DNA from: Utricularia gibba
Lineage: Eukaryota; Streptophyta; Magnoliopsida; Lamiales; Lentibulariaceae
DNA length: 64,000 nt
NCBI GenBank assembly: GCA_002189035.1
Contig: NEEC01000017.1
Location: 1,364,001-1,428,000, forward strand
Direction of reading: 5' to 3'
Below, one piece after another: positions 1,763 through 59,527 of this stretch. The translations under genes were made by a program, and so were the position numbers. Below the pieces are notes generated by a model. The model had not been told where the DNA came from, ran no database searches, and saw nothing but the letters and a program-made list of their open reading frames with translations. Position 1 is the stretch's first letter, and every line of letters starts with the position of its first letter.

Positions 1763-3606
1763 ATGGTGAAGATCACGGCGTTGCTCGCATTGAAATGCCT
1801 CTCAGAGGGAGGCGATCCGATCATCTTTGCTAACGCTTCCGATCTAAGCAATTTCGGCTTCTTTCAACGTCCCAGCGTTAAGGAGTTTATCGTGTTCTTC
1901 GGTCGCGCGGTAGCGAAGCGGACGCCTTTGAACCAACGCCAGTCGGTGCAGCATGAAGGTGTGTATCAATCATACCTTATTCCCCCAGGCCACCTCTTTT
2001 CTGGAGTGTTATTGTTGGTGTCCGGATTTGAGGTCGTTTCTTGTTTCTCTTGGTATATTTCAAGGGCTTTTACGTTCCCGTGGGTTGAAATCTGATATTG
2101 TTCTTGGTGTGAGTATTTTCTTGTATCATGAAATTTGTGAACTGTCTACATTGATTTATTTATCATGATTCCTATCAGATTACCATTCTCTTGTTTTCGA
2201 TTTGGATATCGTATTTGATTACGTACTTGCTTCCCAGTTGATAGGAAAAAGCAGTATTGTTATTATAGAATGGTGACATCTAATCGACAAACAAGTTACT
2301 ACTACAAAGCTTCGAATGCCACAAATAGTTCGTACTAATGAATTCCTTAGGAATTGTATGAATTTCGATGACTTTATCTGATGTAATTTTGTTGTTATCC
2401 TGATTAAGATAATAAAGATCATCCTATGTCAAACCATGATATATGAGTTTCATTTGTGGAATTGCTCATCTTCCGTCCGATCAGAACTGCCGTCTACTCC
2501 ACCGAAAATGTGAACTTGCTTGTAAGCCTTGCATGTATGAAGAGTTTGAGTAAGCCCATGATGATTACCAGTGATTTACTATCCTGTTTCACCTGTCAGT
2601 TTAAAAATCCTTTCTTTGAAGCCCGTGATTACTGTGCCTTGAATATGTTGTTGAATCTAGAAAATCAATCTGCTATTTTGACCAATAGCTGATGATTACC
2701 ATGCTTCACTCGCAACATCAGAATATAAGGTTCACTCATACAACCGAAACAGATTGTGTGCTTTGGCTTTCATGGATGATCATTATCCTGTAAGGAGTGC
2801 CTTTTCATTGCTGAATCAGGTAAATGGCCTATGGTGCTCTATTACATGCGTTATGGACATGCATTCTTTATTAATATCTTCTAATGCGCTTTCAAATTTT
2901 AATTCATGGCATGATCTGTCAGGTCTTAGACGATATCAAAAGAGCTTTCGTGACTCCTGGAAAACTGTTGAGGCAGATGTCACACGGCAGTGGCCTTACC
3001 TCACTGAGTCCCTGACCAAGTTTCAGGTAATTCACGTTCACACACTCTATTTTTTCGTGAGCATTCTTATAATTCTTATTTAAAACCTCAAAGGACCCCG
3101 CCGAAGCTGACAAGCTGTTGAAGATTCAAAGGGAGTTGGATGAAACTAAAATTATACTTTAAAGTACTCCTGAGAACATCATTATGCGTCCCTTCACTAT
3201 GAAAATTCGTAAGAATCTATGTTGTAGCTGTAAACAGGAAGATGATTTCAAGGAATTAGTCTCACATGGAACTTTTTTTGCTATACATATTAGTTTTCTC
3301 CTCGAGCGGGCAGCAGTGTGGTTGGATTTATCCATGCGATGGTAAGATTTTTGTGGGCTTCATTGCAGCACAAGACAATTGACAGCGTACTAGCACGAGG
3401 TGAGAAGCTAGACAGCTTGGTTGAGAAGAGCTCCGACCTCAGCGCAGCTTCACAGGTATGTATTTCAATCTTCCACCTGATCTTCCAGCAACCCATCATC
3501 TATCTGCTAGCTATAGACAGAAGGTAACAGCAGCTTCCATGGAATTTTGGAACAGATATTCTACAAACAAGCGAAGAAGACGAATCAGTGTTGCACTGTG
3601 CTGTGA
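1763..3606 (+). CDS. YKT61: YKT61 longin-type R-SNARE, with two single-base lesions
   Basis: Exons 1763-1958, 2722-2819, 2923-3026, 3094-3159, 3369-3455 and 3556-3606 give an almost full YKT6: longin domain from MVKITALLALKC through MDDHYPVRSAFSLLNQV, then the R-SNARE coiled coil (KLLKIQRELDETK, TIDSVLARGEKLDSLVEKSS) and a prenylation tail KKTNQCCTVL with paired cysteines. YKT6 is a lipid-anchored SNARE acting in ER-Golgi, vacuolar and autophagic fusion. Two breaks are visible. Near 2933 one base is missing between the VLD and YQKSF codons, so exon 3 starts in the wrong frame. After 3159 the expected GT donor reads TAAAG, as if a G were lost, giving an in-frame stop. Every other splice site and the terminal motif are intact. 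Either the assembly has two indel errors or this copy is a young pseudogene; I favour errors because similar losses occur in four other genes here. Confidence 0.85.
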
Positions 3607-4860
3607 ATATATTTTTTCTCAAAGGAAGGTATTCATCATAAGTTTCAAAAGGGTGTTGCTGTTTGCGATCTTCTCATTTCTCTGTATCATAATGTTGCTG
3701 CTATGAAAACATATTGTGACGGTTTCACTTCCTTCTGTATGCAATGTTTGCTTCCGGATTAATGGCGAGTGCAAACAGGGCAAGAAGGCGAAGCATCGAG
3801 GCTCAGATCTGTAAATAATCATCGGGCAACGGAACCCATGACCGCGCCATGGCTGCGAAACCGGGTGCCGGCGGCGGCGGCGCCAATCGGAGCGCCACGC
3901 CAAGATACGGGCCGGTTTCCGTCGCCGATGAAGCCCAGACAACAAATAGAAGAATCATCACTGCCCCGAATGAATCCTCCCCCTTTTCCATCTCTCTATC
4001 TGCTGCTTCTCTGAATGGTTTTTGTGTTTGTTCAGTTGTCTGCGTTGCCGCTCGGCATCCACGACGCAGGAAGCGTCAAAGGTTGTTGAATTCCGGCGTC
4101 CCGGAAATCACCGGCGACGAGGGGGAGGGCAACAACCTTCACAAAAACTCCCTCCATTTCCCCCTCGAGCCTCATTCTTCCTTCTGGGCTTCATCTGAGA
4201 CACTCGAGTTCTGTCTGCTTAATGCACCGGAGTAATTACACCATCACAATTCAAGGAATAATACTTTTAATAAATTCTTAAAAATAAAAATCGTTGTTTA
4301 TATTAAATTCCTTAAATGAAAATGCATCATATTTAATAATAAAATTACGAAAAAGGGATTTTTTTTCAAAAATAGAAATATTCCAAACATATCTATAAAA
4401 AATTAATACGAAAAATAATCATTTATTTTATCTCTAGGCAGGCCCGCCATGTCTGGACAGCCCAGTATTTATTTCTTCAAATTGTAAAAAAAATATGTTA
4501 GATTTTGACGCAAAAAAATTAAAAAAATGGAGGTGACGAGACTTGCTAAAAAAAGGAGAAAAAAAAAACAGGATATCTAATTTTAGGACAACTTAGGTTT
4601 GGTGTTGGAGTATATCCTCTCATCTTTATCCAATCCAGGCCGTACTGCTTCTGACACTGCACCAAATCCAACGGTCAATGTTTGCCCTAGACAGGCCGCA
4701 TCTGTAACCGTCGAATCCTAATCCCACGACACGAACGGAAAGTTGCAACATCGCCGGCCGTTAAATCCTGATCCAACGGCTGGACGCGCCGAAAGTATCA
4801 CGACAGACGTTACAAGACAACGCCAAGTCTAATCAGGGAGCGACAACTTGTAAACTCACC
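3607..4860. other. Intergenic, 3' side of YKT61, no recognised gene
   Basis: The first part is the probable YKT61 3' UTR. A GC-rich island at about 3840-4230 carries open frames on both strands: a plus frame at 3849-4235 with a Gly/Ala-rich start, and a minus frame at 3803-3991 with a hydrophobic start. I recognise neither, and the composition alone could keep frames open. From 4250 to about 4600 the sequence is AT-rich with A runs. From about 4640 to 4860 it becomes GC-balanced with repeated CCAACGG-type motifs, as in a promoter for a plus-strand transcript starting near 4860. Confidence 0.4.
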
Positions 4861-6600
4861 AGCTTCGGTGTTCGCGTTAAGAAATGAACTATTAGTAGAG
4901 CCTCAAGTATTCGGGAGCGGAGACAGCAAACTGGGGGTTCTTTTTTTTTCCATTTTTTTTAGTTTTGGGAGAATAGTCCTATTTGGACCTTCGGGGTTTC
5001 TGCTGCGCGGGCACTGTTCGACGAATTGCACGAACCAAGTTTGTGAAACTGGGAAAAGAACCGTTTTTTTTTTTCCTCGTTTCTTTGCGAAAGTCTTCCA
5101 CTTCTTGAAGCTGTGATTTGAACTGAAGCGGGTTGTTCTGCCCGGGTAAGTTTGGGGAAAACTGAGGGCTGTTGTCCTGTTATATTCGATTTTCTGTTTC
5201 ACAGTTCTGCCATTTGCGGTGATTTAAAAGTGGTTTGGTGGTAATGACAGAGCTTGTTGCTCTTTGTCATCTATCAGAAGTTGTTACTTAATTGTTTGCT
5301 AATTAGTCATTCCTATTCTATCTGTTTTACGGAGGATGCATTTTAGTTGCTTCTGAAATTTTTTATCGCACATTGTTCTGTGGGAGAGCTTGATAGTGAT
5401 GGGAGGAGTACAAGCTTGTGTACTCCTTTCCTGTTGCCCTTTTAGTGGCGCCTGGTGCTTACAGGTTTGTCCTTTAACTTGGGAGCGACTATGTCTTTCC
5501 TTGATGCGTTTCTTATTGCTACTCGATCAGCTTATGAGCATGGATACTACTTGGGGTCCTCTTGATGGCAATGTCTAAACTCATTCTATTAACTTAGTGT
5601 AGTTGCAACGTGAGTGATGGTGTCCTTTTGGATTCCACCTTTCCGTTTTTCTACTAGTTGCATTTCCATACCAAACCTGTGAACTTCAAGTGATGCAAGT
5701 TACCAAAGCGGCAGCCTATCTTCTCGGCCTAATTAATACCCTTTCTTGTTGAGTACATGCTCTAGGAATCTTACTACGGCAGGATGTGAATAGAAGGGGT
5801 AACACAGTTGCAAAAAGCAAACTCACTTTGAGGATCCTCATATTATGTGTCATTTGGAAGAGGTGTTGTCTTTGTTTCTTGCTTCTCTTTTACTAGAAGC
5901 AATTAGAATTACCTCAGCCTTCTGCCATCACCCGCCCGGTATGCAAGCATGCATAGTGGTTGGGAGATGAGAAAAGCCTACCACAAAGGTGCTGAAGATG
6001 CTGTGCTTCAACAACTTTATTGGATCGAAGTTCCATTCCACTGTTTTTTTTAATGGGGTGGATCTAACCCTAGGAAATACATCACTTGGTACAAGCAATC
6101 AAAGGAATTCACTTGCTTTTTAGTACACTACAGTTACTCCTATGACCCTAAGGACACATCATTATTGAATTGTAAGGACACATCTTGTCAGGTCAGTAAC
6201 TGTTGTTCTGCGATTAGGTCAATCCATCTACAGGCTGATGTGTTTGAGCTCTGGGACGAAGATGAATCAGATCTTGAACTTCATTGTCTACTGCCCAGGA
6301 ACCTTGACTGCATCCCACCTGAAAGCAAGAGGCGCATGTCATTTCTTGCTGAGCAAAAAAAAAGTACCCAAAGATCATCTGAACAAATCTCAGGCAGCCA
6401 CTTTTGTAGTGCAGAAAGCCATGTGAGAACAAGGTCGGTCCGGGCAAGAAGCACTCTCAAAACCCAGATCTGCAATGCAGTAGGGACGGATTATGTTAGA
6501 ACGAGATGATAACGGCAAGGAGGCAAGACGGCGCCGCCGCCGGAGATCCATTCTGTAGAGAAGTGACGTTAGTTTCGTGTAGAAGGAGCAGAATGAATGA
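4861..6600 (+). other. Transcript-like region without a convincing ORF
   Basis: The stretch after 4860 looks like a plant 5' UTR with T-rich tracts, and CCCGG|GTAAGT near 5145 is a good donor site. Later segments have exon-like composition: 5480-5560, with a 24-codon frame starting MSFLDAFLIATRSAYEHGYY, and 6229-6510, with a frame containing ELWDEDESDLELHC. They do not join into a protein I recognise. Possibilities are a non-coding RNA, a degraded gene, or the 3' exons of the MIR156 primary transcript, which runs leftwards through 6600-6900. Confidence 0.3.
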
Positions 6601-6791
6601 TCGCAGTAAACAGATGAATAACTTTCAGCGATCACTAACGACACACCAGAACCCAACATAAAAAGGAGAATCGACATCGCCCCATGAGATCAACGTAAAG
6701 TAAATAAAGGGGTGTGTGTTTTGTAAGGATCTGGAGAACAAAATTCGATCTTGCAGAACAAGAAAAAGAGATTAGTGAAAATTTAGTAAGA

Positions 6792-6890
6792 AAAACCTGA
6801 CAGAAAGAGGAGCGAGCACACGACGAAGGCAAAGGTAAGAACTTGTTACAAATGCCGTGCGAGTGCTCGCTCTCTTCTGTCAGATCTCTG
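6792..6890 (-). ncRNA. MIR156: MIR156 precursor hairpin
   Basis: The two arms, about 6798-6820 and 6863-6884, are near-perfect reverse complements enclosing a 42-base loop. On the minus strand the 5' arm carries a perfect miR156-family sequence (6863-6882). The 3' arm is a star strand with two single-base bulges, at the positions where I remember them in Arabidopsis MIR156a (an extra A after CTGACAGAA and an extra base after GAG). That asymmetry fixes the strand: the plus-strand 5' arm would be a non-canonical miRNA. miR156 is loaded into AGO1 and represses SPL transcription factors to hold the juvenile phase. The primary transcript should start upstream on the minus strand (about 6.95-7.1 kb or beyond). 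No long ORF overlaps convincingly. Confidence 0.92.
6863..6882 (-). ncRNA. miR156: Mature miR156 (5p), 20 nt
   Basis: The reverse complement of these bases reads TGACAGAAGAGAGCGAGCAC. It differs from the commonest miR156 form by T to C at position 14 (GAGCGAGCAC instead of GAGTGAGCAC), a variant known in other plants as far as I recall. It starts with U and is 20 nt long, as usual for this family. Confidence 0.9.
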
Positions 6891-7064
6891 AACCCCCATT
6901 TCAGCCCGAAGCTTCGTTGCCAAAAATGGTCAGATCTGGAGATCTATTTTGGGGAAGAAACCCTAGAACAATGGCAGTACAGTACAATCCCTTCTTTCTT
7001 TCTTCCGGGCGGAGGAAAATGAATGGGCGAGCCCTGTGGAAAGCACTTCCCCTGTTGATCCCCC

Positions 7065-7073
7065 TATTTATTG
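7065..7073 (-). promoter_or_regulatory. Possible TATA-like element for MIR156
   Basis: On the minus strand the sequence reads CAATAAATAGGGG, a TATA-like stretch about 185 bases upstream of the mature miRNA. It could place a start site near 7035. This rests on motif and spacing only. Confidence 0.2.
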
Positions 7074-7273
7074 ACTTTTTCACAATCACATGGTCTCCCC
7101 CACCAGTACATGTTCTTCAGTACAGAGTACAAGTTTGTACATTGTTTCCCTTACCCTCATAAATTCTAATAAAACAAATCTTCCCTTGCCCAAAACCCCA
7201 TTTAAGCAGACTAAATTCAAGTTGCCCATCTGCTGTTTTGTATGAACACTGAAGTTTTTCTGATACCCGGAAG

Positions 7274-7450
7274 ATGGCCGGCGGAGAACCGAAGAAGATG
7301 AAGGTCGTCGGACCAGGCACGCGTCCGCATATGATTGGCGCTTGCCTACAAAGATAACAACCCCACGGTGGGGCTGCCCCCAGAGTTGGCAAATGTGCCT
7401 GCCAACGTCGCCTTCCCGGTGGCTGCTTCGTCCAAGTATTTATTCCTACG
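7274..7450 (+). pseudogene. Possible small-protein remnant split between two frames
   Basis: ATG at 7274 opens MAGGEPKKMKVVGPGTRPHM, followed by a stop at about 7355. In the next frame, from about 7345, a clean stretch reads AYKDNNPTVGLPPELANVPA and runs to a TGA near 7455. Both halves look like protein rather than noise and would join with a one- or two-base correction near 7345. I do not recognise the product. It may be a degraded gene, an indel error or chance. Confidence 0.2.
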
Positions 7451-7455
7451 TTGAA

Positions 7456-9390
7456 TTTAGGGTTCTTCTTCTTCTTCTTAATAGTATTCCTACGATAGCC
7501 ATAACCCGCTTTGTCCTTATCACTCTTTCGACATTTTCATACCATTGTCGTTGATTCTTATGACTTTTCAAAAGGCGTCGCCATTACAGTACTTTCACTT
7601 TACTCTTTATCCTCCAGCACACGCCCTCGTCAAAGGAACAGATCGCTTGTATTGTAACTCCAATTCAGCCCAGAATCCAACCCCGGAGAGTCTCGAGATG
7701 TAACCCCGGAACAAATAAAACGAATACAAACAGAGTTTGGGAAGCAGAAACTTGAATAAAAGCTTGGTTTTGGGTTGGATCACAGGCCAAGTGACAGAAG
7801 CTATTGCACTCATCCGGACAGATCGAGTGCCAGTTGCACTTGCAAGCAGCTAATTCAATGTGTTGGTAAATCCAGTTGACTGCGACATGGGAGGTGTCAG
7901 GAATGGAAGAAACACTCCTGCAGTACTCTCGCAGCCTTTTGCACTTGACTTCAATTTCCAGTTCTTCATCTCCTTCATCTTGTGGTCCTCTTTAGAGCTT
8001 GTCAAAACAACAAACGCTCCCTTGAAACCTGTTGCAAAGAAAGAAAAAGTCTTGTACCTTCACTCAATGCTATGTTATAAGGTTTTGAATTCAGATGCAA
8101 ACAAAGATGGGGAATACAACCATTTTGAGCATAAGATCGGGCTCAACATCACCCGAATGATTAATATGTCAAAATTATGATGACACTAGACATCCAAATA
8201 TCCAAATGTTGAAAAAAGCTTCGATTAACTTCGTACATTGCAACGGCAAAAAAATGTTTCCTTGGGACAACATGACTTCATCGCAGATAATCCTTCGTAA
8301 CAAAGATCAAGGTCGAGTCTTAGGAGAGACCGATTTTCAGATTATGGAAACAGTCCGGTGAATTGTACCCGATTAAGATTCAGGTGTAATGCGCGATGTG
8401 ATGCTATTAATAGAAATAAAAGAAGATAGGAATTTTTAAATGAAAATGTCGGAGAACGGAAAAATCATGAACAAGTCGGAGCTCATTAGAAAAGGGTTTT
8501 CATTAGACGGGGATGGAGAAGATGTACAAGTTAGAAGGCTTGGAGTTGAACTTTTTATTCTTTGAAGTTTCTTATATTTATAGAAGAGTTTGGTATGATC
8601 GAATTCTGAACTTTGTAAGTATCGGCTCCTTTCTGTGCCTACAATATGTATTGTGGTTCTACTCTTATATAACTGTCAACTATTCTGTCATTACCGTAAT
8701 TCGGCTATTTTTAAAACTATTCAAAATGATACAATCTTCTGACAATTATCAATCTGTCAACCTATGACAATTTGTCAGTACACTTTTTTGTTACTTTTCA
8801 GTGGTTGATTACCTCACTTAGATTTATCCCCCATCAGATAGTTTTCATTATTTAACATAAATTACATATTTCGTTTCAAAATTTGATGTATCGTACATTA
8901 TTAGTGCATAACTACTTTTTAACATTTTATATTTTACATATTTTTTATGCCTATTATTGAAACATTGAAGATCAATATTTTACATTATTTAAAAACTAGA
9001 CATGATTAATTAAGAAATTTTTTTATCATATTTTTAAATAATGAGTAACTATTAGTACTGCAATTATTTCAAATAATATAGTTTTATTGTCTCAAACTAT
9101 TTTTATAAATAATAGATTTTTTATCATTGTTTTGAAACAACGAGACTAATTACGTCAAATTTTTATACATTGGATATGGACAGTAAAACACTAGAAACTA
9201 TGTTTGAAATTAATTTTCATAAATAATAGGGATTAATAATGTCATGACTCAAATAAAAGGGTATGATATCTCAGCTTAGGACATGATATCCAGCCTGCAT
9301 GCTTAAAATAGGGTGGTCTGGGCTTGCATGTAGGCCCATTTAGTTTATTGGACAATGGGCTTGACAGGCTCATGTGGTTTGCAGTTGCGG
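7456..9390. other. Intergenic, mostly AT-rich
   Basis: Bases 7456-8200 are of mixed composition, with an unrecognised 106-codon plus frame at 7860-8180. Bases 8200-9250 are strongly AT-rich with no gene-like signal. Bases 9390-9520 probably hold the 5' UTR exon of SGF11, which has exon-like GC content and a T-rich intron after it. Confidence 0.4.
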
Positions 9391-10904: not shown

Positions 10905-12336
10905 ATGGCGAACCAGGGAGCGAAGAAGCGGAAGGAGGAAAACGCTCGCCACATGCAGAGGCTTCTCCTCATTATCGTCGCTTGCAACGTAATTTCACCT
11001 GATTTTATATATTGTGTTTCGAATTCTTCCGGATTGTGTTGGTTTCGATTGTTCGATTGGATTCTGTAGGCTGTGTATGCTGTCGTAAGGCTTGGGTTCT
11101 TCTTCTCGAGTTTCACGTGGAAGCACTGCCTGGGCTTGATTTTGACTTCGCTAGCCTACGTGATTCCCTATCAGCAGCTGGCTACAATGTCCAAGCCGTC
11201 TTATTCCGACTCCGGGGAACTTATCGACGGTGGCTTCGATATGACTACTGGGGGATTTGCGGGTAGGCTATTTGAATGTTAATTGTTTCTTTGCATCGCA
11301 TACTCTGGTTCATGTTTGATAATGGTTTTTGCAGAGCACTTGAGGGATTCCATATTCGTAGCAATTGCTTTAAAGTATAATCAGTGTCTGAATTTCAGAA
11401 GCATTTCTGATTTTATATGAATATTTGTCATTACTTAACAGTCGTTATTGGGGAGATCTACCTTCCGGAATCATCTGCTATCCATACATTGTCTATGATT
11501 TCTATGGTCAAATGTGCTATTTTTCGTGTTTTGCAGATACTTGCATGATGTTATCTACATCACCTGCTTCGTCCAAATGAGTTCGATAATTTCTGATAAG
11601 TTCTGGTACACATACTTGGTGGTACGTTATGCTCCCCCCTTAGTGATCTATTTAAAAGAAGAGGACGAAAGAGCTTTGGATTGTATTGTGAAAGTCAGAA
11701 TTTTGTATCAGTGGCATTGTGCTGTTAACCAAAAGTTGCTTTTGTGAAGGGGCGGTTAAGTGTGTTATATACTGAGATCTATCATTTTCCCCATGATCCA
11801 GTGTGGATGACTGATTCCTTTTCAATGTCTTCTCCTGTAAACTTTTAACCCTACGATGCAATCTTCCATCCATCTCCTCTGATGGATGGTCTTTTGTTTC
11901 TCCTTACTCTGCAGCCACCATCCGTGCAATTGACTTTAAGCTACTAGCAGATGATTGTGGCCAGCGGCTCTCTTTATGTGTGTCGTTGTGAACTGAGTTT
12001 TTTCAGGTCCAATAGGTTTTTGTGTAGGCTTTGTAGAAATACCCTTGTGTACAGGGGTTACTAGCGAGTCCACGATACTAAAATATTCATGAACATTCAG
12101 ATTCCAGGTTTTGCAGCGTATCAACTCTTCGGATTTGTCAAAGGTTTTCTTTCTCATGGGCAAGAGGTACGTAGACATGTTCCTTCCCAGCCCACTATCC
12201 CTTATCTCATGGGATGTGTTTTTTCCAATCACTTCCGGTGCAGGGTGCCGAGGAAGACGAAAAGACCCGCAAGAAGAGAGAAAAGATGGAAAAGAGAGCT
12301 TCCAGACCAAAATTTGTCAAGAGCAGGGCACGATGA
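10905..12336 (+). CDS. TMEM208: TMEM208 / SND2-like ER membrane protein, one base missing at exon 2 end
   Basis: Exons 10905-10988, 11070-11262, 11537-11621, 12101-12166 and 12244-12336. The product starts MANQGAKKRKEENARHMQRL and has hydrophobic segments around VVRLGFFFSSFTWKHCLGLI, YLHDVIYITCFVQ and FAAYQLFGFVKGF. It ends in a strongly basic tail (EDEKTRKKREKMEKRASRPK), the layout of TMEM208/SND2 proteins, which assist SRP-independent insertion of tail-anchored and other proteins into the ER. Exon 2 ends GCG G|GT and exon 3 starts A|TAC, which leaves the codon one base short. A GGGG run at 11261-11263 instead of GGG would restore Gly-Tyr-Leu-His. All other junctions fit, so this is probably an uncalled homopolymer base; a true frameshift would remove the second half. 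Confidence 0.88.
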
Positions 12337-15800: not shown

Positions 15801-15915
15801 AGGTGAAATTTCTGTGTATCTATCTCTTCAAGCATTCTGTTGTTTGTAGAAGCAAAAGTATTGCAACCCATGTGGAAAATACACACCAGTTTCAGAAGGA
15901 ACAACCGGCGATGCA

Positions 15916-18900
15916 TCAGCAGTTGATCCCGCATTGCTTTGTGTCAGGCCCCTTGGTTTTGAGTATAAAGGGATCGATTCTCACCCAAAGCAAGGAGAAG
16001 ATGGAAGCCAGGAGTATCGACCAGATGACGACGATAGTGGGTGTTCTGTTCTGCCTGCCCATCAGGCCTTTGAGGAAGGGATAGAGATGAACGATGACCC
16101 AGAATGCGAAGAAGAGCTTTCCGAAAAGGGGACCCCAAGTTTGGTATCCATTGTTGATTGCATCGGATATGCCAGCAACAACACCCACCATGTTGATTAT
16201 GAGAATCGTGGTTGGGGGTATGAGGAGTGTTGTCCATTTGAAGGTGTATAGCTCTCCAAACTCTTCGTCATCCGATGCCTTGGATGTGACTGTGAAGTTT
16301 GTGTCTATGCCTGCTAGGATTTTCAGAAGGCCTTGCACAACCGCAAAGAGGTGAGCTGATATTCCTCCTATTACCCAGAACTGCTCGTTCCTCCACCATT
16401 CCTCAATGCTGACGCCACTCCACCTTAGCTCCAGGATGCCCGTGGCGAATATCGAGAGGAAGAGTCCTATGAATACGAGGCTTGCCAGGGTGCTTATCTG
16501 GATCAAGGGAGAAACATATCTTTAGCTCGCATGGCAGTGTGTGAATTTAGTGTCAAGTGAGTGGCTGCTTCTCCTAGTGAGTTGAGTACCTCTGGCATTA
16601 TGAACTTTCCTGTGAGCAGGCAAACTGCTGGAAGGGTGCAGTAGGCAAGAAGTGGTATAGAAGTAAAGGGGTAGATTGTTGTGTTAACGTATGCAAATCG
16701 TTCCAACCATTTGAGGTTTCCTTCCTTGTAGCCATAGATCAGAGGACTATGGCGACTGAAGAAGATTTCAACAGATCCTAGAGCCCATCGGAGCACTTGA
16801 TTCAGACGGTCGGACAAGTTGATCGGAGCAGACCCTTTGAAGGCCGCCCTTTTGGGGTTACAGTAAATAGATCTCCAACCACGGCAGTGCATTTTAAAGC
16901 CTGTTAAGATGTCTTCTGTGATGGAGCCATATATCCATCCTAGCTGCATCAGCAGAGTTAGATTAAGAATGTCTAGTATCTGATGTGCAGGATTTAAATC
17001 ATACCTCTGTACCCCAGTCTGTCTTGTCTTCATAGCCACAGCTTATGACATGTATGGCCTCTTTAAGCAAAGCTGCTGGACTTGAGGAAGGGGGAACTCC
17101 ACCATCCACCATCAAAGTTGAAGTCACAAATACTGGTGATTGCCCGAATTTACTTTCAAAGTTCATTTGAGACTTTAGTAACTCCTTGTCATCATCAAAT
17201 CCTGGATTGCAGAAAAGTTTTAATGTATTTTCCATTCTTATTGTATTAGGTAGAGAGATTGATGGAAACCTTGAGCTCCATCTTGGTCGCCAAATGCATC
17301 CTGTAAAGTGATTTTCTTGCGCCGTCCAAAACATGGGCAGCAATCACAACTTACCATTTTTGGACGCTTGGGGCCCTTGGGAGGCTCATAGCCATATAGC
17401 GCTTGCCTTCTGAAGATGCATCCTGTTCCAACATAGACTGGACCCTGGATCCCATCCAGGCCTTTCATGTTGATCTGTGTGAAAATGAGCAAAAGAAGGT
17501 GTTATTAGCATAACTTGACTGCTTTCTGTATGGCTTCAGGCACGAGTGTCAAAACAGTTTCTCAGGAACTTACATCGAAGAACACTGTATTTCTGTTGGC
17601 GTATCTGTCATGCCGGTCAATGCCATCAAATCTTTGAGGAAACTGGACATAACACACTTTCCTCCCTGATTGAGGATCCATTAAGAAGCACATTGCTTCC
17701 CGCACAGCCTTGCTGTTGTTTATATAATGATCACAGTCCAAGTTCAGCATGAATGGAGCATTTGTGAGAACCCCAGAAACCCGGACCTGAAAATTTCCAA
17801 GTTATGTGGTTGGACTGCTGTAAACTTGCTACCGTGAAGAGCCATTGATCATACCAGGGCGTTTATTGCACCTGCTTTCTTGTGATGCTGGAAAGCTGGC
17901 CTCTTTTCTCGAGAAACGTAAACTAGGCGAGGAAGTTCATGACCTTCTGCATCAAAACCTCCATTCTGACCTAAAAAGACTTGGATCATACCAGGATGAT
18001 CTTTGGTATTGTTTCCAGGCCATGGTGTGCCATCTTGCATGATCCATCCTCCAGGTGAACCCTTTGTGGCTTTGGCAACCATTGCATTTATTCTAACTTT
18101 GAACTCCTCGTATTCTCTCTGTCACAAAGCATTCTTGCATCAAACCATGATACTCATATTTCTTCCAAAAAAAACTTCATGGTGTACCTTCATAGCTCTT
18201 CTCTCCTTGACAAAAGTGGGCTGCACTTTGTCCTTCAGGTAGTCCACCTTCTCTGCAAAGTACATCTCTGGTGCTCGAGGCTCTATCGAAAATTTCTTGC
18301 AGAAAGGAACCCATTTTCGAGAAAACTCTGCTGTTTCTGATAGTGCTTCAAAGGTGCACATGGAGGCGCCATCATCAGAGAGGTAACATGATATTTTATC
18401 AACAGGGTAGTCCATCGCCAAAATTGAGAGAACAGTGTTGGCTGTAACAAGGGGTGGTTCCTTCAAGGGGTCAACTGTGCTAACAAAAACATCTACTGGT
18501 GAAAGCATGTTTGGTTCGCCTTCCTTCTCGTATCTGCAAGAAAAACAAGTGTGATCGAGCTGCACTTGGCTATCCTTGTTTCTGGTGTTCAGGTTACAGT
18601 TGATTCATTTACCTGTGAGAGAGGCGATCAAGATAAGTCTCACGGTCGATGGGGAACCACTTTGGGAACTGATCAAGGATCCAGGAAAAGGCGAACCAGA
18701 CTTCACAGATAATGGAAGTCAGCCAAAGGCCAATGGCATCGTGGACGGGGTTCAAGATCCTGTACCGCAGGAAAATGGCTAAAACCAGCAACCGAGCTGC
18801 GATCACCATGCGGTAAGGATTCACTTTGCTTGATGCTATGGGAACTTTTCTTGAAAGTGGTTGTCTTGATTCATCATTACTGCAGTTTGACACAACGAAA

Positions 18901-19877
18901 CTCTACTAAGTCAAATCTAACATCTACCTGTTTCAGTAGGAAAAATAGTTGTAAGTATAGGGGGATATGAATCAAGAGAAGATACATCATTGCATCCATG
19001 TCCTCGTAATCATCCATCCTCTCTTTCCATCCCATTTCCTTCTGATCATCCCATCTTGCACTTGTTGCATCACTAGGCTCGTCTGAGAATGAATATGGAT
19101 GAATTCGCTTGTGCAGCGTGGAGACAGGCGCTTGCTCTCTGTATGCAGTATTTGACAGAGTGATTTCTCCACTCACCTGCAAGTAAGTCAAGTTTAGTAT
19201 CATTTGATGTTGTATGTGGTACCGGTAAGTATCTCTTGTTTGCTGTTTACAGGAACGGATCTTCCTCCTGCGATAACGGGTGGGTACTGTTGGCTGCTGT
19301 CATCGTCTTCAGGTCCTCTTCCATAACTCATTTTCCCATGGAGCATATCAACTACTTCCGTGTGCCTTTTCTGATCTTCAATGTTGAACTCATGCTCAAT
19401 GTCGTCAATGTCTTCCTCATCATCGTCTCCTTCAACCCTTGGACTACCTTCACGCCAAGTGAAAAGAAAACATTGGAAATTGATTGCAAATAGACAGGAA
19501 AAGAGCATCAATTCTACATCATGTAGGAGCACCTTTGAGGCGCTTGTATCTGGTATTGCACTGTGGGCAAAGCTGGCTTCCTTCCCGTCTCTCGTACTCG
19601 TAGCACGGCCTGCATACGGGGAAGCCGCACTCGTTGCAGGCGACGAACAGCTCGCCGTCAACTGTGAGGCCAACGGCGTCCCCACAGATCTCACAAACTT
19701 GCCCACTTAGATTCTTCATTTGCTTCGGCTGCAACAGCCACCAACAACACGACAATGTCACAAGGAACAGGAAGCAGCTCTCTTGGGGACCATGAAACTC
19801 ACCTCCTCATGTCCGTGAATGACGACGAGCTCGTTCCGGTTGTGTGATCCGGCCACAAGCCCTGCACTTGCCTCCAT
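15916..19877 (-). CDS. CESA7: Cellulose synthase catalytic subunit 7 (secondary wall)
   Basis: Twelve exons on the minus strand: 19803-19877, 19533-19728, 19251-19447, 18986-19176, 18613-18879, 18188-18533, 17855-18118, 17574-17786, 17270-17474, 17005-17201, 16590-16943, 15916-16497. They total 1028 residues, all phases consistent. The start [20 protein letters not shown], the RING-like zinc finger (CEIC near 37 to CPQC near 82) and the end [11 protein letters not shown] match Arabidopsis CESA7/IRX3. Catalytic motifs are present: DDG near 362, DCD near 529-531, TED at 726-728 and QVLRW at 766-770. Two N-terminal and several C-terminal hydrophobic helices frame the glycosyltransferase core. 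CESA7 works with CESA4 and CESA8 in plasma-membrane rosettes that make secondary-wall glucan from UDP-glucose. Minor oddities are [11 protein letters not shown] where YCMPKRPAFKG is usual, and PLIYGYKEG for PLWYGYKGG. Confidence 0.96.
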
Positions 19878-20998
19878 TTCCGGAGCCTGCAGGAGATGAT
19901 GGATGCAGAGTGAAAACTGGGGATGAAGTTAACAACCTTCCTTTTTAATAAAGTCTTGAGCAGAAGTTCAGTAGTAGCTTTTCGTTTTTTAGTTGCTGGG
20001 TCTACATTGCCTTCAAGCTAAGCTTCTTCTGTTGCAACCACCATCTCTCTTCAGTCTCCAGCCACCTTTACGTAAAAATAAATCTTGCATTACAAATGTT
20101 ATACTTTTTCTTGTAATATAATTTCTTTCTCAACGTGACACAACTGTTCCGCGGGCAAGAACATTCTTTGTCCTTTTTCTTGTTCTCAGGTGCCATGCCG
20201 GTCTGGCTTTGGACAGGGGGAGACCAGATTTGGTGCCCAAGGTGTCAATTTTCCTTCGATATCTGTAGACGGGGGGACAACAAACAGCAACGCGTCGTAC
20301 CAGGAGTCCAGATTTGATGTGCAGTGAAGGCATGATATCAAGAAAAAGTAATGAAGTGCTTGTGAACAAGAAGCAAGATGAGTGTTCCATTGACTGTAAT
20401 GGCATTGAAATCCTCATGATAATCTTCGCAGTCTTCGCTGGTTATTCTCCGGCCATTCTTTGCACGCAACCGGTATTCGTGTGTTGGCATTACTATTATT
20501 TCTTGTTTTGATGGTCTTTCAATGGCGGAAAAGGGTATTCTTGTTTTTGTTTTTTTGTTGATTGGTTCGCTGAGATTCATTTCTTTTAATCACCTTCTTT
20601 TCTCGTTGTCAGATTGAAGCCAGGTACTGTCCGGTCGTGTTGATCCTCGTCTCCGGTGTTCGCTGGTTTCATCAGAACTTGAAAAAAAACTTCACACGAA
20701 ACTGAGCCTTGGGCCACGTTGGGCTCGACCCACTACAAGATAGAGTCCAGGCGTGACTTCAATTTCTGGAAACTGAATTCCTGATCCAGTTCTTCCCTAT
20801 TTTCGTCTTGGTTGCCGGTTATTCCAATATCCAACGTCATTGATTCTTTTTGTTTTGCGGATTGAAACAGCAGTTGTTGTATCCATCTGTTTCCCATTTT
20901 TGAGATTGAGTTGGTGTTGCCATGATTTGCTGTTCCATGAAGCTTCTTTTTTGAGGTTTTTGTGTGCTGGTTTAGATGAATGTTTTGTCACAATTTCA
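19878..20998. promoter_or_regulatory. Divergent promoter region between CESA7 and the PPR gene
   Basis: About 1.1 kb separates the two start codons and must hold the CESA7 promoter (leftward) and the PPR promoter and 5' UTR (rightward). Open frames here are short and unrecognised. The part near 19900-20120 is T/A-rich and suits the CESA7 5' UTR and core promoter. Confidence 0.5.
20228..20235. promoter_or_regulatory. Candidate secondary-wall MYB element (M46RE/SMRE)
   Basis: ATTTGGTG fits the remembered MYB46 consensus [A/G][G/T]T[A/T]GGT[A/G], and its reverse complement contains the SMRE ACCAAAT. It lies about 350 bases upstream of the CESA7 start codon. Secondary-wall CESA genes are known MYB46 targets, but an 8-base degenerate match is common by chance. 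Confidence 0.3.
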
Positions 20999-30717: not shown

Positions 30718-30760
30718 TTCTCATCTTGCGCACATTCATTTTCAGCATCTTCCAAGGGAT

Positions 30761-31938
30761 ATGGAGAGGGCTCCTCCGCAGAGAAATCTTCCCTCACCTT
30801 CGGAGTTCAAAGGCCGTGGCTTCTCCATGAGTGGTAACAGCCCATTTGTAGTCATTGCGATCGTAGTCCTCGCCGCGGTTTTCTTCGTTTCCGGTGTTGT
30901 ATTCCTAGTGATTCGGTATCTACGGCGCCCCACGAGTGAAAACCCTGATGATATGGAGAGTATAAGTGCTCTTCATGGTCAGCTGAGGCGGCTTTTTCAG
31001 TTGCATGATTCTGGGGTGGATCAGTTATTCCTTGATGCATTTCCTGTTTTCAGATACAAGTCTGTTTTAGGGTCGAAAGCTCCCTTCGACTGCGCTGTTT
31101 GCTTGTGTGAGTTTGTGGCTGAAGATAAGCTGAGGTTGCTACCTAAATGTAGCCATGCTTTTCACTTGAATTGCATTGATACTTGGCTTCTGTCACATTC
31201 GTCTTGTCCTCTGTGTAGAGCGAGTTTGGTTCATGATCTATCCAGTGATGGGTGCTGCAGTTCTCCCAAAGTCATGCTTCTTGAATCTGAAAGTGGGAGT
31301 TCAAGGGGAACTTTTGTGATGCATCATTCTCTAGAATTGATTCCTTCCATGAAAACGATGATTGTTTCCATACAACTTCTCCATGTCCACTTCTTAGTTC
31401 GGGTGGATTGGATCAGGATGAAGAAAAAAGCAGGAGCACTAGGGAGAAACTTGTTCATATCAAGCTTGGGAAATGCAGAAGTAGTCATGTTGCAGTTGAG
31501 GAGACTAGTGATGCACAAACAGAAAGGTGCTTTTCAATGGGGTCATTTGCTTACATATTGGATGAGAGTGAAATCCTAAGAGTTCCTATTCAAATCTCGA
31601 ATACCAAACAATGTTGTGGCAAGAAGCCCTGCTCATGTGATAGTTCAAATATCTGGTTAAATGGGAAGAGGGAAAGGCTTGCTGTATCTGAGATGGAGTC
31701 ATTGAGGCGGGCCTATTCGACTCGATTGCTGATCAACCGGAATCAAGTTACCCCAACCATGCTCCCGGACCTGAAAATTCAAGAGAAAGGAATGGTTTAT
31801 GATGAGGAGGAAATGAGAAAATGCAGAAGCTTGGGTTCTCAGGTAAATTTCCCTTATGTGGGAACAAGAACTCTCCTGTGGCTTATGGGAAGGCATAGTA
31901 AGAATGCCCATGATTCACCTGCTTCAACTAGTGTATAG
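30761..31938 (+). CDS. ATL13: ATL13-type RING-H2 E3 ubiquitin ligase, one-base frame break
   Basis: Intronless like most ATL genes. The first frame gives a transmembrane segment at residues 28-52 (VVIAIVVLAAVFFVSGVVFL), the ATL GLD-like motif GVDQLFLDAFPVF (85-97) and a RING-H2 domain (111-152: CAVC, CSHAFHLNC, WL, CPLC) whose residues match ATL13. These membrane-anchored ligases ubiquitinate regulatory proteins. At about 31305-31310 the frame breaks. The conserved C-terminal part (DASFSRIDSFHENDDC, KLVHIKLGKCRSSHV, ERCFSMGSFAYILDE) continues in the next frame to the stop at 31938. One extra A in the GGGGAAC run would join them. Unjoined, the first frame ends at 31579 with an unrelated tail. 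The total length (about 390 residues) suits the family. Confidence 0.88.
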
Positions 31939-51454: not shown

Positions 51455-53014
51455 CTACCCAAACAGATCATCATCATCTTCATTGCTGTTGTTGTCTGGA
51501 CGCCTCGGGGATTTATCATGTTCACTCCCAGAAGCAGCAGTATTTGGTGCAGGAGCTACTTCACTGTAAGCCCAAGATGACCCCACATTGAAAGTTTCTC
51601 CATAAAGGTCATCGTAGATTCCCCCTCCTCCCCCACTACTCTTAGCTCCAGATTTCACTTGGTTTAAAACCTGTCGGAGTTTCTCTGTAACACCTCCTGT
51701 CTTGGGACTGCCACGTTCCCCGGCTGAATCTGATGGATCCTTCCCTTTTGGAATCACTGTAATCTGAACAAGGGACTCATATTTTCCAACAAGACTTCCT
51801 TCTTTCACTCCAACAGGACCTGGTTCTGTCCCAACATCGGCTCCATCAGAGAACCCAACAACCTCGACCAGCTCTCCTCCAAACTGATCTTTAAATGACA
51901 CTCTTCCTTTCCTCACTCTCTTTGATGCTCTTGACGTGGTATCCACCTTTGTAGCATCCGATAGTTGGTTTGGTCTTTTATGTCCATTGAGAACTCGGTT
52001 GATATAGGTATTGTAAGCCACAACTGCTTCTTCATCAGAGGGATCTGGAGGAGGTGGCAGACTGATATCAGTAGGCTGGAGTGATGGTCGGAATGGATCT
52101 ACGTTGTTCTTCCTCAAAATATAAGTTCTAGTAGAGGCAGCAAATTTCAATGATTGTCCAACTTCTAGCTCTACAGGCGTATCCTTGGTCATTCGTTCAT
52201 TTGCAACAAATGTTCCATGTACAGACCCTAAATCGATCACGTATATGCTGTAAGAAAACACCCCCAGTTAGATCTGTTTTGCAATGCACGTCCGCTGAAC
52301 TAAAATCCAGTAAGCATGATGCAGCATCAAGAAAGCAAGCACATTTGATCATCAGCCAATGCTGGAGAAGGGGAGTGAGTAAATGAAAACACAGCAATCT
52401 CTCCCGCTGTATCGGCAAAGAAATGATCTTTTGAAAGAAATACAAAGCATTTACTAGTAACTCAATGCATATGAAATCAGCAAGAGGCACACAGAAATAT
52501 AGAAATCTTGAGAAGGAGGAATTTGTGTAAAGGAAGTTCAAGTTGTACCCTCCATTCTTGTGAGGAACAACAGCAGCGTGTTGGCGTGAGACAGACTGAT
52601 GCTCAAGAACAAAATCACAAGTCTGCAATTGCCTTCCAAATATATGTCTACGTTTATCCAAATTAATGCGGCCAAGAACTTCGCCTTCCTTCATAACATC
52701 AAGATAATAAAAACCAGGTAGGGGCTCAATAGCCCAATCAGGAGCCTGCCAAGTAGACTGCCCCCACCGACCTGGCTTACCTGCTGAGCTGATGCAACGG
52801 TTGCTGTATCCAGCTCTAAAGCATTTTGTAACTTGCTCTGGTGCTCCAAATGCTGGTTCTGAGGATAACTTACACGGTTTTGACTGACCAAAGAAGTATC
52901 AGACTCTGAGATTGTAGGGTGGCTGGTTGATCTAGCAGATGATTTAGTTGTGACCGCAAAAGGCTCTGAAGACTGAGCCTTTTTGAAACGATCAAGCCCC
53001 GCTCTTCCATACAT
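51455..53014 (-). CDS. NIPP1: NIPP1-like nuclear inhibitor of PP1 (FHA domain), one base missing
   Basis: Two coding exons on the minus strand, 52549-53014 and 51455-52247, for about 419 residues once one base is allowed for. ATG at 53014 starts MYGRAGLDRFKKAQ. The FHA domain runs from DKRRHIFGRQLQTCDFVLEH through SVSRQHAAVVPHKNG to YVIDLGSVHGTFVANERMTK. After LPPPPDPSDEEAVVAYNTYI comes the PP1-docking RVSF motif in KRVRKGRVSFKDQFGGELVE. The C-terminus holds IYDDLYGE and an acidic DDDDLFG end. NIPP1 tethers PP1 in nuclear speckles and binds phosphorylated splicing and chromatin factors through the FHA domain. Near 52780 the frame slips: SAQQ is in one frame, RWGQSTWQAPDWAIEP in another. One more C (plus strand) joins them and also makes exon 1's length fit the splice phase. 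Confidence 0.9.
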
Positions 53015-54471
53015 TGCTAAACCCCAATACTTCTCAAATCCCAGTGAGACACATACGCTAAAATTCACCACTCATACACGTGATTTAGCTGAAGACAGAA
53101 AGATCTGCTAAAAGGCCTGGAACAATGCCCAACTCATACATTACATACTACGCGACATCTCCAGCAAACAGAAGAAAACAAACGAAAGTGAAGTATTTGA
53201 ACTCATGGGCCAACTCAGACACCAAAGAGCATGAGCTGGGTGGGCGTCTCCAATATATCTCTACTTAAACACAAACATTTCGAAATAAAAATTAATCACT
53301 TAACTACAGACAAAAGAATCCGACACGATTCTGTACAGCAACCAGGAGCAAAATCCAGCGAATCATATACAAGCGAATAACCCAGACAACGGATCTTAAT
53401 CAAGCTAACGAAGCCGCAAAAAACTCCTCCAAAAACCAGAAAAGGCGACCTTAGGGGTCACTGATTTGCTCGGAAAACCAGAAGACGACGAACGGGATCC
53501 CCTTACGAAAAAAAGCCCAACTCTATTGGGCTGTAATTATAATTATTGAGCCTATAGTGTTATTTTATCAGCCCAACAATCACATCCAGCCCAACACAAT
53601 TTGCTTTTTATTTTTGAGAAAAAGAATAATATTTCATTTTCATTAAGCATTTTAAATAATTTTATGGTAAACAAATTAAAATTGGTCGGAGCAAAGATAT
53701 GGTTATCGTCGTCTCCTCTCCCCGCAACTCCCCGACGACCTCATGAACGACACATTCCTCTGACAACTCGATGGAAAACACACTGCTCTATATGTTTTCC
53801 TCCTTTGTCGCCTACAGAAAGGAGTACTGACTGTCCGTACTCGTATCCTTCTCTTCAGATTTCGGGTTCATCGCTCCAATCCGGGACGCCGTCGAAGGGG
53901 GGTAAAGAGAACAAGAAATGAAAATCCTGAACTGGGTGATGGTCGGAGAACCCATCTTCACACACAATCCGCTACTAATGCATTCGGCTTTCGCTTTCAT
54001 TATTCGAGACAATGCTCATGACCCCAACTCGATTTACCAGTACAAGAACGAATCTTTATTGTGCCGGGGACTTATCATTTTTGGAAATCGAAGGTTGGGG
54101 ACCTTCTCCCGCATCTGATGCCTTTTTCCATCGTTTCCTATCCGTTCTTCATCTGGTCCCTTGGATTACTATTTCCTACGAACTGATTGTATGGCATGGT
54201 TTGGATTGTGAACCACTTTAAGAAGCAGAGGATTACAGCACCAACTTGTGTAAAGTATTGGACTCGGAGGATCCAATTTCCTACAAGAAAGCAACCGTCG
54301 TTTGCTTTTTTTGCAGAAATCCGCGCATGTGTTATGAAGAGCTGATGCAATACGCAGCTACTATCGTACATGTTTCTTGCCTGGATATAAGCTCCAAATT
54401 ACCACACCGACCAATTTCTCCCTTAAAACTTTGGTTTGAACTGAAAACCCAATAGCCCATCTCTTAGTCTG
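53015..54471. other. Region between divergent NIPP1 and Nudix genes
   Basis: Bases 53015-53500 are the NIPP1 5' UTR and promoter. Bases 53690-54470 have exon-like composition with several short frames (for example 54246-54455) that I do not recognise; they may be 5' UTR exons of the Nudix gene or non-coding. Confidence 0.35.
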
Positions 54472-56652
54472 ATGCTGTCCTTGAGATATTTTTCTCGATT
54501 GTGCTCACTGCGTTTCAATTGTTCAGACCCACTTTTGTTCGGTCGCAAGAAACCAACTTTGGAAGCTACGAGGTCACCAAAAGGTTCGCATTTTTGTTAT
54601 TTTTTTTAAGGAATTTCAAGTTATTGGGAAAGGTTGATTTCTTGGAGATTTCAGGGGGGTTGAGACAAGGTAAGGTTAGGTTTTTGTCAAGCATCGGAGC
54701 GTCAATGAGTTCTTCTACGTCGCCGGTCTTGTCGGAAAATCAAATTGATCAGGTTGACTGGATTTTGGAAGGCAGAAACGACGACCATGAAGGGGTTATA
54801 GTGGAACTGAGCCCCGAGTCAATGGATCCTCAAGTTTTTTCTTCGTTGCTGAAAGCCTCCATCTCTCAATGGCGACAACAGGTTTTCGTTTTACGGAATT
54901 GGGTTTTTAGCTTGGGCAGTATCTGTGTTTCCCTTCTTCTTAATCTGCAAAAAGAAAGGGCCAACTTTTTCTTCTTGCGAGTAATCTTTAAGGCATATGT
55001 TCTAAGCCTGAATCGAGACAACAAATCTTTAATGTCTCCATTCTGCTGAATCAATTGTTCCAAACAGAAGCCGATGATGCGTATATTTTCTCAAAATGTT
55101 AGGTAAACAAAGACATATCCATCTGATATTTTTAGAGAAACAAAGTGTGTTTGGAATCAAATTGGATGGAAACTGAACTGGGGTCATCTGTGAAAAGTTT
55201 GTGGATATTGTTGCAGGGAAAGAGAGGGATATGGATTAAAATCCCAATCGAGTCAGTGAATCTTGTTGAGCCTGCAGTCAAGGTTACTATCATCCCTTTC
55301 GTCCTTTTGATGACCAAACGCCTTCTGTTTTTACTTGCCACTTATGATAATGAAGAACAACGCATGTTTCAGGAAGGATTTTATTTTCACCATGCAGAGC
55401 CTAAGTATTTGATGCTTGTACATTGGCTTTGTACATCAGAAAATACCCTCCCAGCCAATGCCTCTCATCGAGTTGGTGTTGGTGCATTTGTCTTGAATGA
55501 CAAGAATGAAGTATACTCTCTCATCTTGAAAATATGGAAATTTCTAAGCAACCATGTTACCATTTTTTTTTTTTTTTTGATAACTGTCTGCTATTACTTG
55601 AAAAACAAAGAACAATTATGAGGATACTGCTTTGGTCAGCTGATTTAGAGACAAGCTATTGTGGCTCAATTGTAGACGTTTGTTGCCTATAGATGCAACC
55701 TAAAGTTATATATTGTTTTTATGCATATCACAATGTTGCAGGTGCTGGTCGTGCAGGAAAAAAATGGTAGACTCCGTGGATCTGGTGTATGGAAATTCCC
55801 CACAGGAGTTGCAGAAGAGGTTGGAGAAACTACTTCTCAAAACTTTTCAACGATTTACTTTAGAAAGAATCCATTTCTTTGTGAAATAATAGTTTTCAGC
55901 CAAGGAACTTTGCATTTGTTAATGAAATCTGCCGTTTTAGGGTGAAGACATTTGCAATGCTGCAGTCAGAGAAGTGAAAGAAGAAACCGGGGTAAGAATA
56001 AGTGTTCTGCATTTTGTTGTGTGTGTCAGTTGTCCAGCTAACCAACTGTTTTCATCATCCGTTTTACACCTTGGTTGCAGATTGATTCAAAGTTCTTGGA
56101 AATACTAGCGTTCAGGTAATCCCTCCTAAATCATGCCATAATGATTCACAAGCCACAAGGCCATTATCTTTTCTTCTCTAACTGATAAGTTATTGCATGC
56201 ATATTGTTTCATGAAATCTGCTAAAATGGGGTGATTTGCAGACAAAGTCACAAGGCATTCTTCGAGAAGTCTGATTTATTCTTCGTCTGCCTGCTGGAAC
56301 CCCTCTCCTATGACATTCAGCCTCAGGAAAATGAAATAGAGGCAGCCCAGGTTTCTTTCTGTATTCCTTGTCTCTTTGTCTCCCATGGCACAAATGCTTT
56401 TGCTGACATCTTGGTGTTGCTTTTGCTTCTTGTGGCGTTATGCAGTGGATGCCGTATGAAGTATATGCAGCCCAACCATTCATACAAAACAGCCAACTTC
56501 TCAAACAGATTTCTCACATCTGTGAAGCAAAGAAAAACAACAGGTACTCAGGCTTCACACCAGTTTCAACTTACTCTGCTTTTGAGAAAAAGAAAGGTTA
56601 TTTGTACATGTCCAGTAAAACAGTCGAGCAGTTGCAGTCATCTGACTCCTGA
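54472..56652 (+). CDS. NUDT: Nudix hydrolase (NUDT2/7-type) with probable transit peptide
   Basis: Exons 54472-54583, 54655-54881, 55217-55282, 55373-55510, 55742-55819, 55941-55991, 56081-56115, 56242-56350, 56446-56652; 340 residues. The first exon gives a Ser/Arg/Phe-rich start, MLSLRYFSRLCSLRFNCSDP, typical of organelle targeting. A second in-frame ATG at 54705 (MSSSTSPVLSENQ) would make a cytosolic 286-residue form like Arabidopsis NUDT2 or NUDT7. The pre-Nudix domain (GIWIKIPIESVNLVEPAVKE, GFYFHHAEPKYLMLVHWL) precedes the Nudix box GVAEEGEDICNAAVREVKEE-TGI, about 203-225, with all consensus residues. Members hydrolyse ADP-ribose and NADH, limiting oxidative-stress signalling. Use of the first ATG rests on splice phase only. 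Confidence 0.9.
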
Positions 56653-58648
56653 ACTCGAACTGAAAAATCTGAACTTAAAAGTCATTTGAACTGGAACTGC
56701 CGTGCTATCCTATCAGTTCCAACATTTTCTGTACACCCTTGCATTTAAATCAAGCATAGAGGACCATCCAAATAGAGTGTAATGGCAGCTTATCTTGTCT
56801 TAAGGAAACACCCAAAGCATTTATTTCTTCTAGACACCATTTTAGAAGGTATATTACAGCTTGAGGAGGTTCTTTGTTCCCCTGCATTCATCATTAACAA
56901 AATGTCAGAATGAAGTTCCTGCAAGAATCCTGGTTCATATGGAGTTTCTGAATAAGATTCTCTTGCCATTACTTGTCTTGATCATCCTCAAAGATCCTGC
57001 AGCAAAATGATATGATCCTTGGGAGGTCACACCACCAGGGAGGAGATGGTGAAATGGAGAATGCATAAGCTCTCACACTGCAGAGTTCATTGAGCATGCT
57101 TCTCCACGTACAACCATTTTTGTCACGTGTTTTTGATGCATGCTGTTTTTTTTTTACCACGGTAAAAAAATATATATCTTGCCAAAGTGTTTATGATGCG
57201 TCAAAATAAAGGAAAAAATCCCAATGATGAGCTACCACAGTTTCATGGTAAAAAGCGTCCATTTCAATAAATACCATTAAATGATATTTGGAGGGGGCCG
57301 CTCCCCCACCCCCACCACCCCCACTTTCAATTTAATATTTTTTTTATTGGAACCTTTTTTTATAAAATTAATGTGTGTCACGGATTCTATCCCCCCCCCC
57401 CTCACATAATGATATTACAAAATCAATTCTTATTTTAATAATTTATTATAGTATGTAAATGTATAATTATACCTATATTTTTTTAAACGGTTACAATCCT
57501 TCTTCTTTTCAAAATACTTTTTTGGATTAAAAAAAACTTATACACCTCCAATTTTTATTTTATAAAAAACATTGTTTAATTTTTTGTTTCAAATTATCCT
57601 TATAATAAAATTTAATATCAAATTGGATTACCGTCACAACAAGTCATTATTCACAATACCAAATTTCGGACCTATGTGATGTAGTTGGATGGAATAGCGA
57701 CGAATTAGTGTGCATGTTTGTTGATCAATTGTCTTTTTCATGTAATCCTAATTGTCATTGTTGAAAGAATCTTTTCATTTTCAAACCTCAAATAATGTAT
57801 GAGACTTACATTCTCATTATACAATATTGTTCGTTTCAAACATCAAATTTTTACGATTTTATTTTTTTAGAAAAATATTTTATACAAAATTAAAAATATA
57901 TTTCTATTTAAAACCATACTTTCTTTGTTGATAACTTCCTATGTATAATCAATATGAGATATTGTCAAGATATTTAATTTTACATTTTATCTTTCTTAGA
58001 TATTCAACATCCTAATTGAGTTCCCTTATACCATCATTAATATATATTCAATTTTGATAGTTTGGTTATGATACCAAATATCATGATTTATATTTTTCTT
58101 GTACGATATTATTTGGTTAGAATACTTAATTTTGATAGTTTTAGGTTTTTACTTTATAGGAAAAAATGCTCGGATGAAATTATGAGGTTTCATCTATTTA
58201 AGTAAGTTTAATCATTTTACTTTTTCATCTGTAGATTGTAATCAATATCTATATATATATATATATATATATATAATGTAACCTAAGTAACTTAATAACA
58301 TTTCTTTTCTTCAAACAATGATATTTATTTTTTCAAATAATTTAAAATAACTTAAAATTTTGAATACTATTTAATTTAAATCTATAATGAAAAAGTTGGT
58401 ATGGATGGCATGTCCCACGCCTAGTAAAGTTGTGACACGACTAATAATTTCTATGCCGACTTTTCTTCTGATCTTGGTAGGATGAGTACATCCGTAAAAT
58501 AAAATAATATTAATCAAATCGGGGGAGGAAAAAAAAGGGGGGCTCAAATTCAATTGACAGGTGGATATAGATATGGGGGAAGTTTCTGGATTACACACGC
58601 ATCTCCCTGTTGTTTTCTTTCTGATTTCAGCTACTCCTTTAGCCTTCA
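56653..58648. other. AT-rich intergenic region
   Basis: Nudix 3' UTR to about 57150, then low-complexity DNA: C-rich tracts at 57290-57325 and an 11-12 base C run near 57391, A/T-rich from 57410, and an AT microsatellite at 58251. The last 80 bases are the leader of the HMA gene. No gene was seen. Confidence 0.5.
58251..58275. repeat. (AT)n microsatellite
   Basis: Uninterrupted AT dinucleotides over 25 bases in AT-rich intergenic DNA. Confidence 0.9.
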
Positions 58649-59527
58649 ATGGCGGTCGAGAAAGTAGGTTTTATGTTTTTTTTTTTTTTCCTTGAGTTCC
58701 TTTTTGGAATTTTGATTTGTGGTTTGATGATTTGAATATGTTTTCCCAGGTGACGCCTATGCTGCTGACTGTGGATCTGCAGTGCCCTGCTTGCTACAGG
58801 AAGATCAAGAAGACGCTCTGCAAACTTCCCGGTGAGTGAGTTGCGCCGTCTGTTGTGTTTTCCGGTTTGCTGGGTGGAGGAGTTTGGTTAAGCTGGTGAT
58901 GTTCCTTGTCTTCCTTCCTGTGGGGACAGAGGTTCGAGATCAGGTCTACAATGAGAAGACCAACACTGTGGCGATCACGGTGATCACTTGCTGCCCGGAG
59001 AGAGTGCGGGATCGATTGTATGGGAAGGCCGGGAAGGTGATCAAGGAAATTAAAATTGTGGAGCACAAGAAGCCGGAGAAGGGGAAGCCGGGGGCGGAGC
59101 AGGAGAAGAAGGAGAAGGAGAAGGATTCCGGGGCGGAGAAACCCAAGGAAGACAAACCCAAAGAAGATAAACCCAAGGAAGGCAAACCCAAAGAAGAGAA
59201 ACCCAAGGAAAAGGAGAAGGATAAAGAGGAAAGTGAGAAACCGAAGGATGCACCAGCGGACGGAGTGCCGTCGGTGCTGCCGTACATGGCCCCCACCTAC
59301 GACGGCTACCGCGGCATGCCGTCTTATCTCGGATACGGGTTTCCCCGCCGCCGCCGCAGCCGATTTACGAAGGCTACTCGTATTACCCCGCGCCGGAGAC
59401 AGGATACTATCATGCTCCGGGTCCGAACATGTACGGCTACAGACCCGTTTATAACAACGGGTTTGCCCCGTTCGACAGAAACTTTAGTGAAGAAGAGAAT
59501 TCCGGCGGCGGTTGCTCCATCATGTAA
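58649..59527 (+). CDS. Pi21-like heavy-metal-associated isoprenylated protein, one base missing
   Basis: Exons 58649-58663, 58750-58831 and 58930-59527. The HMA fold starts LLTVDLQCPACYRKIKKTLC with CxxC at residues 17-20 and continues QVYNEKTNTVAITV to AGKVIKEIKIVEHKK. A long Lys/Glu/Pro-rich repeat follows (KPKEDKPKEDKPKEGKPKEE type), then a Tyr/Pro/Gly-rich C-terminus (PIYEGYSYYPAPETGYYHAP) ending GGGCSIM, a farnesylation CaaX box. The layout resembles rice Pi21 and other HIPPs, which bind metals at membranes; Pi21 is a blast-susceptibility factor. Between YLGYGF and PPPPQ the frame slips at CCCC (59343-59346). One extra C gives a continuous product ending in CSIM. Without it the protein runs on out of frame and loses the prenylation site. 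The intact CaaX makes a sequencing error likely. Confidence 0.87.

Follow-up and report, generated by a model that had tools for sequence, protein, structure and literature searches.

Five genes in the 64,000-nucleotide stretch of the Utricularia gibba genome analyzed here (the window: positions 1364001-1428000 of contig C328, in an assembly of 100.09 Mb in 516 contigs) appear broken as assembled, which raises the question of whether the plant itself carries these lesions or whether they arose during sequencing and assembly. A preliminary description had counted six single-base losses in these genes and attributed all of them to residual long-read consensus error. According to a review, the genome was assembled from 88x SMRT data with HGAP, a pipeline in which Quiver is the polishing step (PMC5793159). 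Our answer is a mixed one, to which we assign a probability of about 0.83: four of the genes are broken by undercalling of G/C runs, and the fifth, a YKT61-like copy, is a true decaying duplicate.

Results

The genes encoding TMEM208, ATL13, NIPP1 and the HMA-domain protein each contained one change of frame, in the direction of a missing base (Table 1). The exact missing base was fixed for HMA alone, where alignment to an intact paralog upheld the earlier placement at 59343, and where the protein ended in a prenylation-type motif (CSIM) when its frame was restored; in the other three genes the loss lay in or beside a G/C run, and the exact base is one that we infer. The losses previously assigned to positions 11262, 31309 and 52780 are present there or nearby; these coordinates are not fixed, since other sites also fit TMEM208, ATL13 and NIPP1. 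When TMEM208 was spliced as its splice sites dictate, the frame was lost at the end of exon 2, and its score against Pfam PF05620 was 94.6 bits as assembled and 188.9 bits with one unknown base added. Restoring the base within GGGGG gave 190.8 bits and within GGG 188.9 bits; although the exact place is not fixed, either candidate site is a G run, and the base may have been lost from one or the other. A search for solved structures of TMEM208 yielded nothing useful. For ATL13, paralog L010 aligned in frame on either side of about 31291-31440 with a single shift between, which the aligner put at 31386. In NIPP1, a base added in the CCCCC run or at 52780 restored the frame equally, and the shift fell between an open N-terminal part and the part bearing the FHA domain; given the usual make-up of plant NIPP1 proteins, both parts probably belong to one protein. 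The earlier count of at least four homopolymer sites holds for runs of at least three bases if TMEM208, ATL13, HMA and a re-sited NIPP1 are included, and not otherwise. Nothing contradicted the observation that no gene needs a base removed: an 861-aa PPR open reading frame and all exons of the minus-strand CesA gene (window positions 15850-19970) read through with no frameshift, and the remaining genes were partly checked.

Table 1. Window coordinates of the five genes and of the sites at which each departs from an intact gene.
Feature	Position	Strand	Details
YKT61-like gene copy	1763-3606	+	Six exons: 1763-1958, 2722-2819, 2923-3026, 3094-3159, 3369-3455, 3556-3606
YKT61 exon 3, one-base loss	2932-2935	+	AA in paralog, A here; no G/C run
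YKT61 exon 4 donor	3157-3165	+	GT of both paralogs replaced by TA, length unchanged; not demonstrably a base loss
TMEM208 (SND2-like) gene	10905-12336	+	Five exons; only copy found in the genome
TMEM208 missing base	11250-11263	+	GGGGG 11250-11254 (Pfam score marginally higher) or GGG 11261-11263
ATL13-like RING-H2 gene	30761-31938	+	Single exon split over two frames
ATL13 missing-base interval	31291-31440	+	Candidate run GGGG 31305-31308
NIPP1-like gene, FHA domain	51455-53014	-	Only copy found in the genome
NIPP1 missing-base interval	52761-52781	-	CCCCC 52761-52765, or CC at 52780
HMA-domain, lysine/proline-rich protein gene	58649-59527	+	Three exons
HMA missing base	59343-59346	+	CCCC; aligner shift at 59341, adjoining the run, against intact paralog L057

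The direction and run context of such shifts were surveyed genome-wide in the largely intron-free GRAS domain with a frameshift-aware aligner. The tally comprised 37 genes once L062, L066, L073 and L074 (which may contain introns, show low identity or be truly decaying) and the duplicate loci L064 (at a contig end, duplicating L041) and L032 (duplicating L033) had been set aside. Twenty-three genes were intact and 14 were shifted. All 20 shifts fell in the loss class (18 one-base losses and two of the same frame class) and none in the gain class (sign test, p = 2e-6), the overwhelming direction expected of long-read undercalling and one with which the four window sites agree. The concentration at homopolymer runs that undercalling also predicts was evident in the GRAS genes and absent at both YKT61 sites: a G/C run of at least four bases lay within 9 nt of 13 of the 20 GRAS shifts (65%), versus 10% in the background (p = 3e-9), and five of the nine six-base G/C runs observed in this set sat at shifts. 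A/T runs were not enriched at the same 20 events. The loss rate in GRAS coding sequence was about one per 2 kb, a value that may not hold for all genes. In one shifted gene read from each of two further families, Exo70 and KCS, only losses were found against the closest references; two more distant references for Exo70 placed one +2 shift, which belongs to the same frame class.

Among the DELLA-like GRAS genes, L047 (C375), L048 (C142) and L049 (C2) each had one base missing in a C run at a common GGPP-type motif, and L024 and L026, where this motif is encoded differently, were intact; with these two intact, a candidate generalization that all DELLA genes are shifted was rejected in favor of three of five. 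Genome-wide, G/C runs of six, seven and eight bases numbered 14854, 2706 and 214. A cliff after six bases, seen in small local samples, was likewise discarded, the genome-wide counts falling steeply but gradually; this steep fall-off, taken without an equal-size A/T control, is at most a hint of undercalling.

Near-identical redundant loci that differ mainly by one-sided losses offer an internal measure of assembly error. Over 4.1 kb, L032 (C316) and L033 (C412) differed by one substitution and 10 gaps, all of the gaps in L032, and L064 (at the end of C414) differed from L041 (C422) by seven substitutions and 13 gaps, 12 of which were losses in L064. In a pair of alleles, substitutions would be expected to predominate and the differences to occur in both copies; the one-sided losses in these pairs are direct evidence of artifact. 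Loss errors at A/T were also present between redundant contigs. Coverage may be lower in such copies, which come from small contigs or contig ends, and their error rate need not equal that of the window.

Frameshifts that were both real and old would free the affected genes from selection. Omega was 0.07-0.21 for pairs of shifted GRAS genes and intact paralogs, versus 0.12-0.24 for intact pairs, and in five GRAS triplets the balance of synonymous and nonsynonymous change was alike on shifted and intact branches. The shifted GRAS genes, unlike YKT61, thus bear the mark of purifying selection, and this lack of relaxation argues against real, old shifts. The test needs a paralog, which TMEM208 and NIPP1 do not have, so its result covers GRAS and YKT61.

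The window copy of YKT61 was aligned to two intact paralogs, L002 (C255) and L003 (C505), each encoding a complete 200-aa protein. The loss described at 2933 proved to be a true one-base difference from the paralog, although outside any G/C run, as is the second lesion at 3160. There, the window reads CTTTAAAGT versus CTTGTAAGY in the two paralogs, and the region aligns without gaps; the count of six single-base losses therefore stands for the one in each of the four other genes and for 2933 and does not demonstrably extend to 3160, and the assertion that no other splice site is damaged fails at this exon 4 donor. The window copy alone replaces residues common to both paralogs, including G76R, G81A, G108R and M185I, and the ratio of nonsynonymous to synonymous codon changes on its branch was 8:13, versus 1:17 on the sister branch (p = 0.023, from few changes). 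Because the donor change is gap-free, conserved residues are replaced, nonsynonymous change is in excess and two paralogs are intact, this copy is probably a real decaying duplicate, as judged from sequence comparison. It combines what would be expected of a duplicate pseudogene, namely intact paralogs, relaxed constraint on its own branch (in small counts) and a lesion that is not an indel. Site 2933, taken alone, could be a sequencing error.

The YKT61 copy on C255 is probably the homeolog of that in the window, because C255 and C328 also carry a GRAS pair. YKT61 and this pair (L027/L028) occur with one copy per contig, 135-180 kb apart, which suggests that C328 and C255 represent a duplicated block. 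The window copy, as probable homeolog of that on C255, would have lost a splice donor, and probably its reading frame too. Amino-acid changes would be building up in it, with the cell served by two intact copies.

Discussion

The shifts in TMEM208, ATL13, NIPP1 and HMA are well supported as long-read consensus error, with individual sites that we infer, because the genome-wide signature is loss-only and specific to G/C runs, redundant contigs differ by one-sided losses, and selection is unchanged. The missing-base signal in these four genes would accordingly be an artifact of assembly rather than a real feature. We propose that the U. gibba assembly, produced by HGAP with Quiver polishing, undercalls G or C runs by one base genome-wide, such that the four shifts would be absent from the plant itself and the genes otherwise normal. 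The original attribution to consensus error can be retained for these four G/C-run losses and is probably incorrect for both sites in YKT61; in the same way, pseudogenization, which had been considered the less likely alternative, is indeed so for the four genes, but real decay fits YKT61 better.

An explanation of all six sites as consensus errors, those of YKT61 included, is unlikely. The direction would be uniform if site 3160 combined a lost G with a separate gain of an A in the intron, which is possible and needs two events, and loss errors at A/T do occur in the redundant contigs. However, the region around 3160 aligns gap-free, both YKT61 sites lie away from G/C runs, and errors of base loss do not yield the excess of nonsynonymous change on the YKT61 branch. 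A decaying YKT61 duplicate beside four undercalled genes thus remains our preferred reading.

It is far less probable that the frameshifts are real recent deletions, somatic or germline, perhaps arising through oxidative damage to G runs in connection with a Cys-Cys motif in COX1. The mitochondrial COX1 of this genome (L084, L085; C515) reads LLLLCCSALVE, the Cys-Cys form of Utricularia; one report describes the two contiguous cysteines for every Utricularia and, outside that genus, for Genlisea section Recurvatae, and gives deletion-biased repair as a proposal for this variant (PMC11688529). The same COX1 gene is broken near residue 242 by approximately 960 bp, probably the cox1 group I intron. 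The position of the losses at G/C runs would also be consistent with such damage. Against it, 14 of 37 GRAS genes would break without relaxed selection, single-copy genes would be lost, and one-sided losses distinguish near-identical redundant copies of a single locus; were this explanation true, fresh frameshifts would be present in a large proportion of U. gibba genes. The chance that the cell gets around some of the shifts through unusual splicing, slippage in transcripts or ribosomal frameshifting is close to negligible: several do lie at runs that permit slippage, but they have no slippery motif or context in common, the runs varying in base, length and position, and many different genes are affected.

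Genome shrinkage and gene loss are topics for which U. gibba serves as a reference. If roughly one third of its GRAS genes (14 of 37, with three of the five DELLA-like genes among them) look frameshifted through assembly, counts of lost or pseudogenized genes based on this assembly would be too high. YKT61 illustrates how a true decaying duplicate can be told from assembly errors by the type of lesion, its run context and the selection on the branch concerned.

Losses of this kind have a precedent in the PacBio RS II consensus of Enterococcus faecium ATCC 700221, also obtained with HGAP/Quiver, for which 561 single-base homopolymer deletions are given in a genome whose chromosome measures 2.9 Mb (PMC4888979). 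This amounts to about one deletion per 5 kb, which makes the order of magnitude of the GRAS loss rate plausible; the present case differs in that the genome is that of a plant, the losses are concentrated at G/C runs, and their rate in GRAS genes is about one per 2 kb. Our literature search found no account of homopolymer error in U. gibba itself. As in known cases of indel error, intact genes pass for pseudogenes; unlike in those cases, the argument here is built on selection tests and redundant contigs, and not on reads. The YKT61 copy, decaying while its paralogs are intact, resembles the fractionation that follows whole-genome duplication, but such fractionation would fit YKT61 alone among the five genes.
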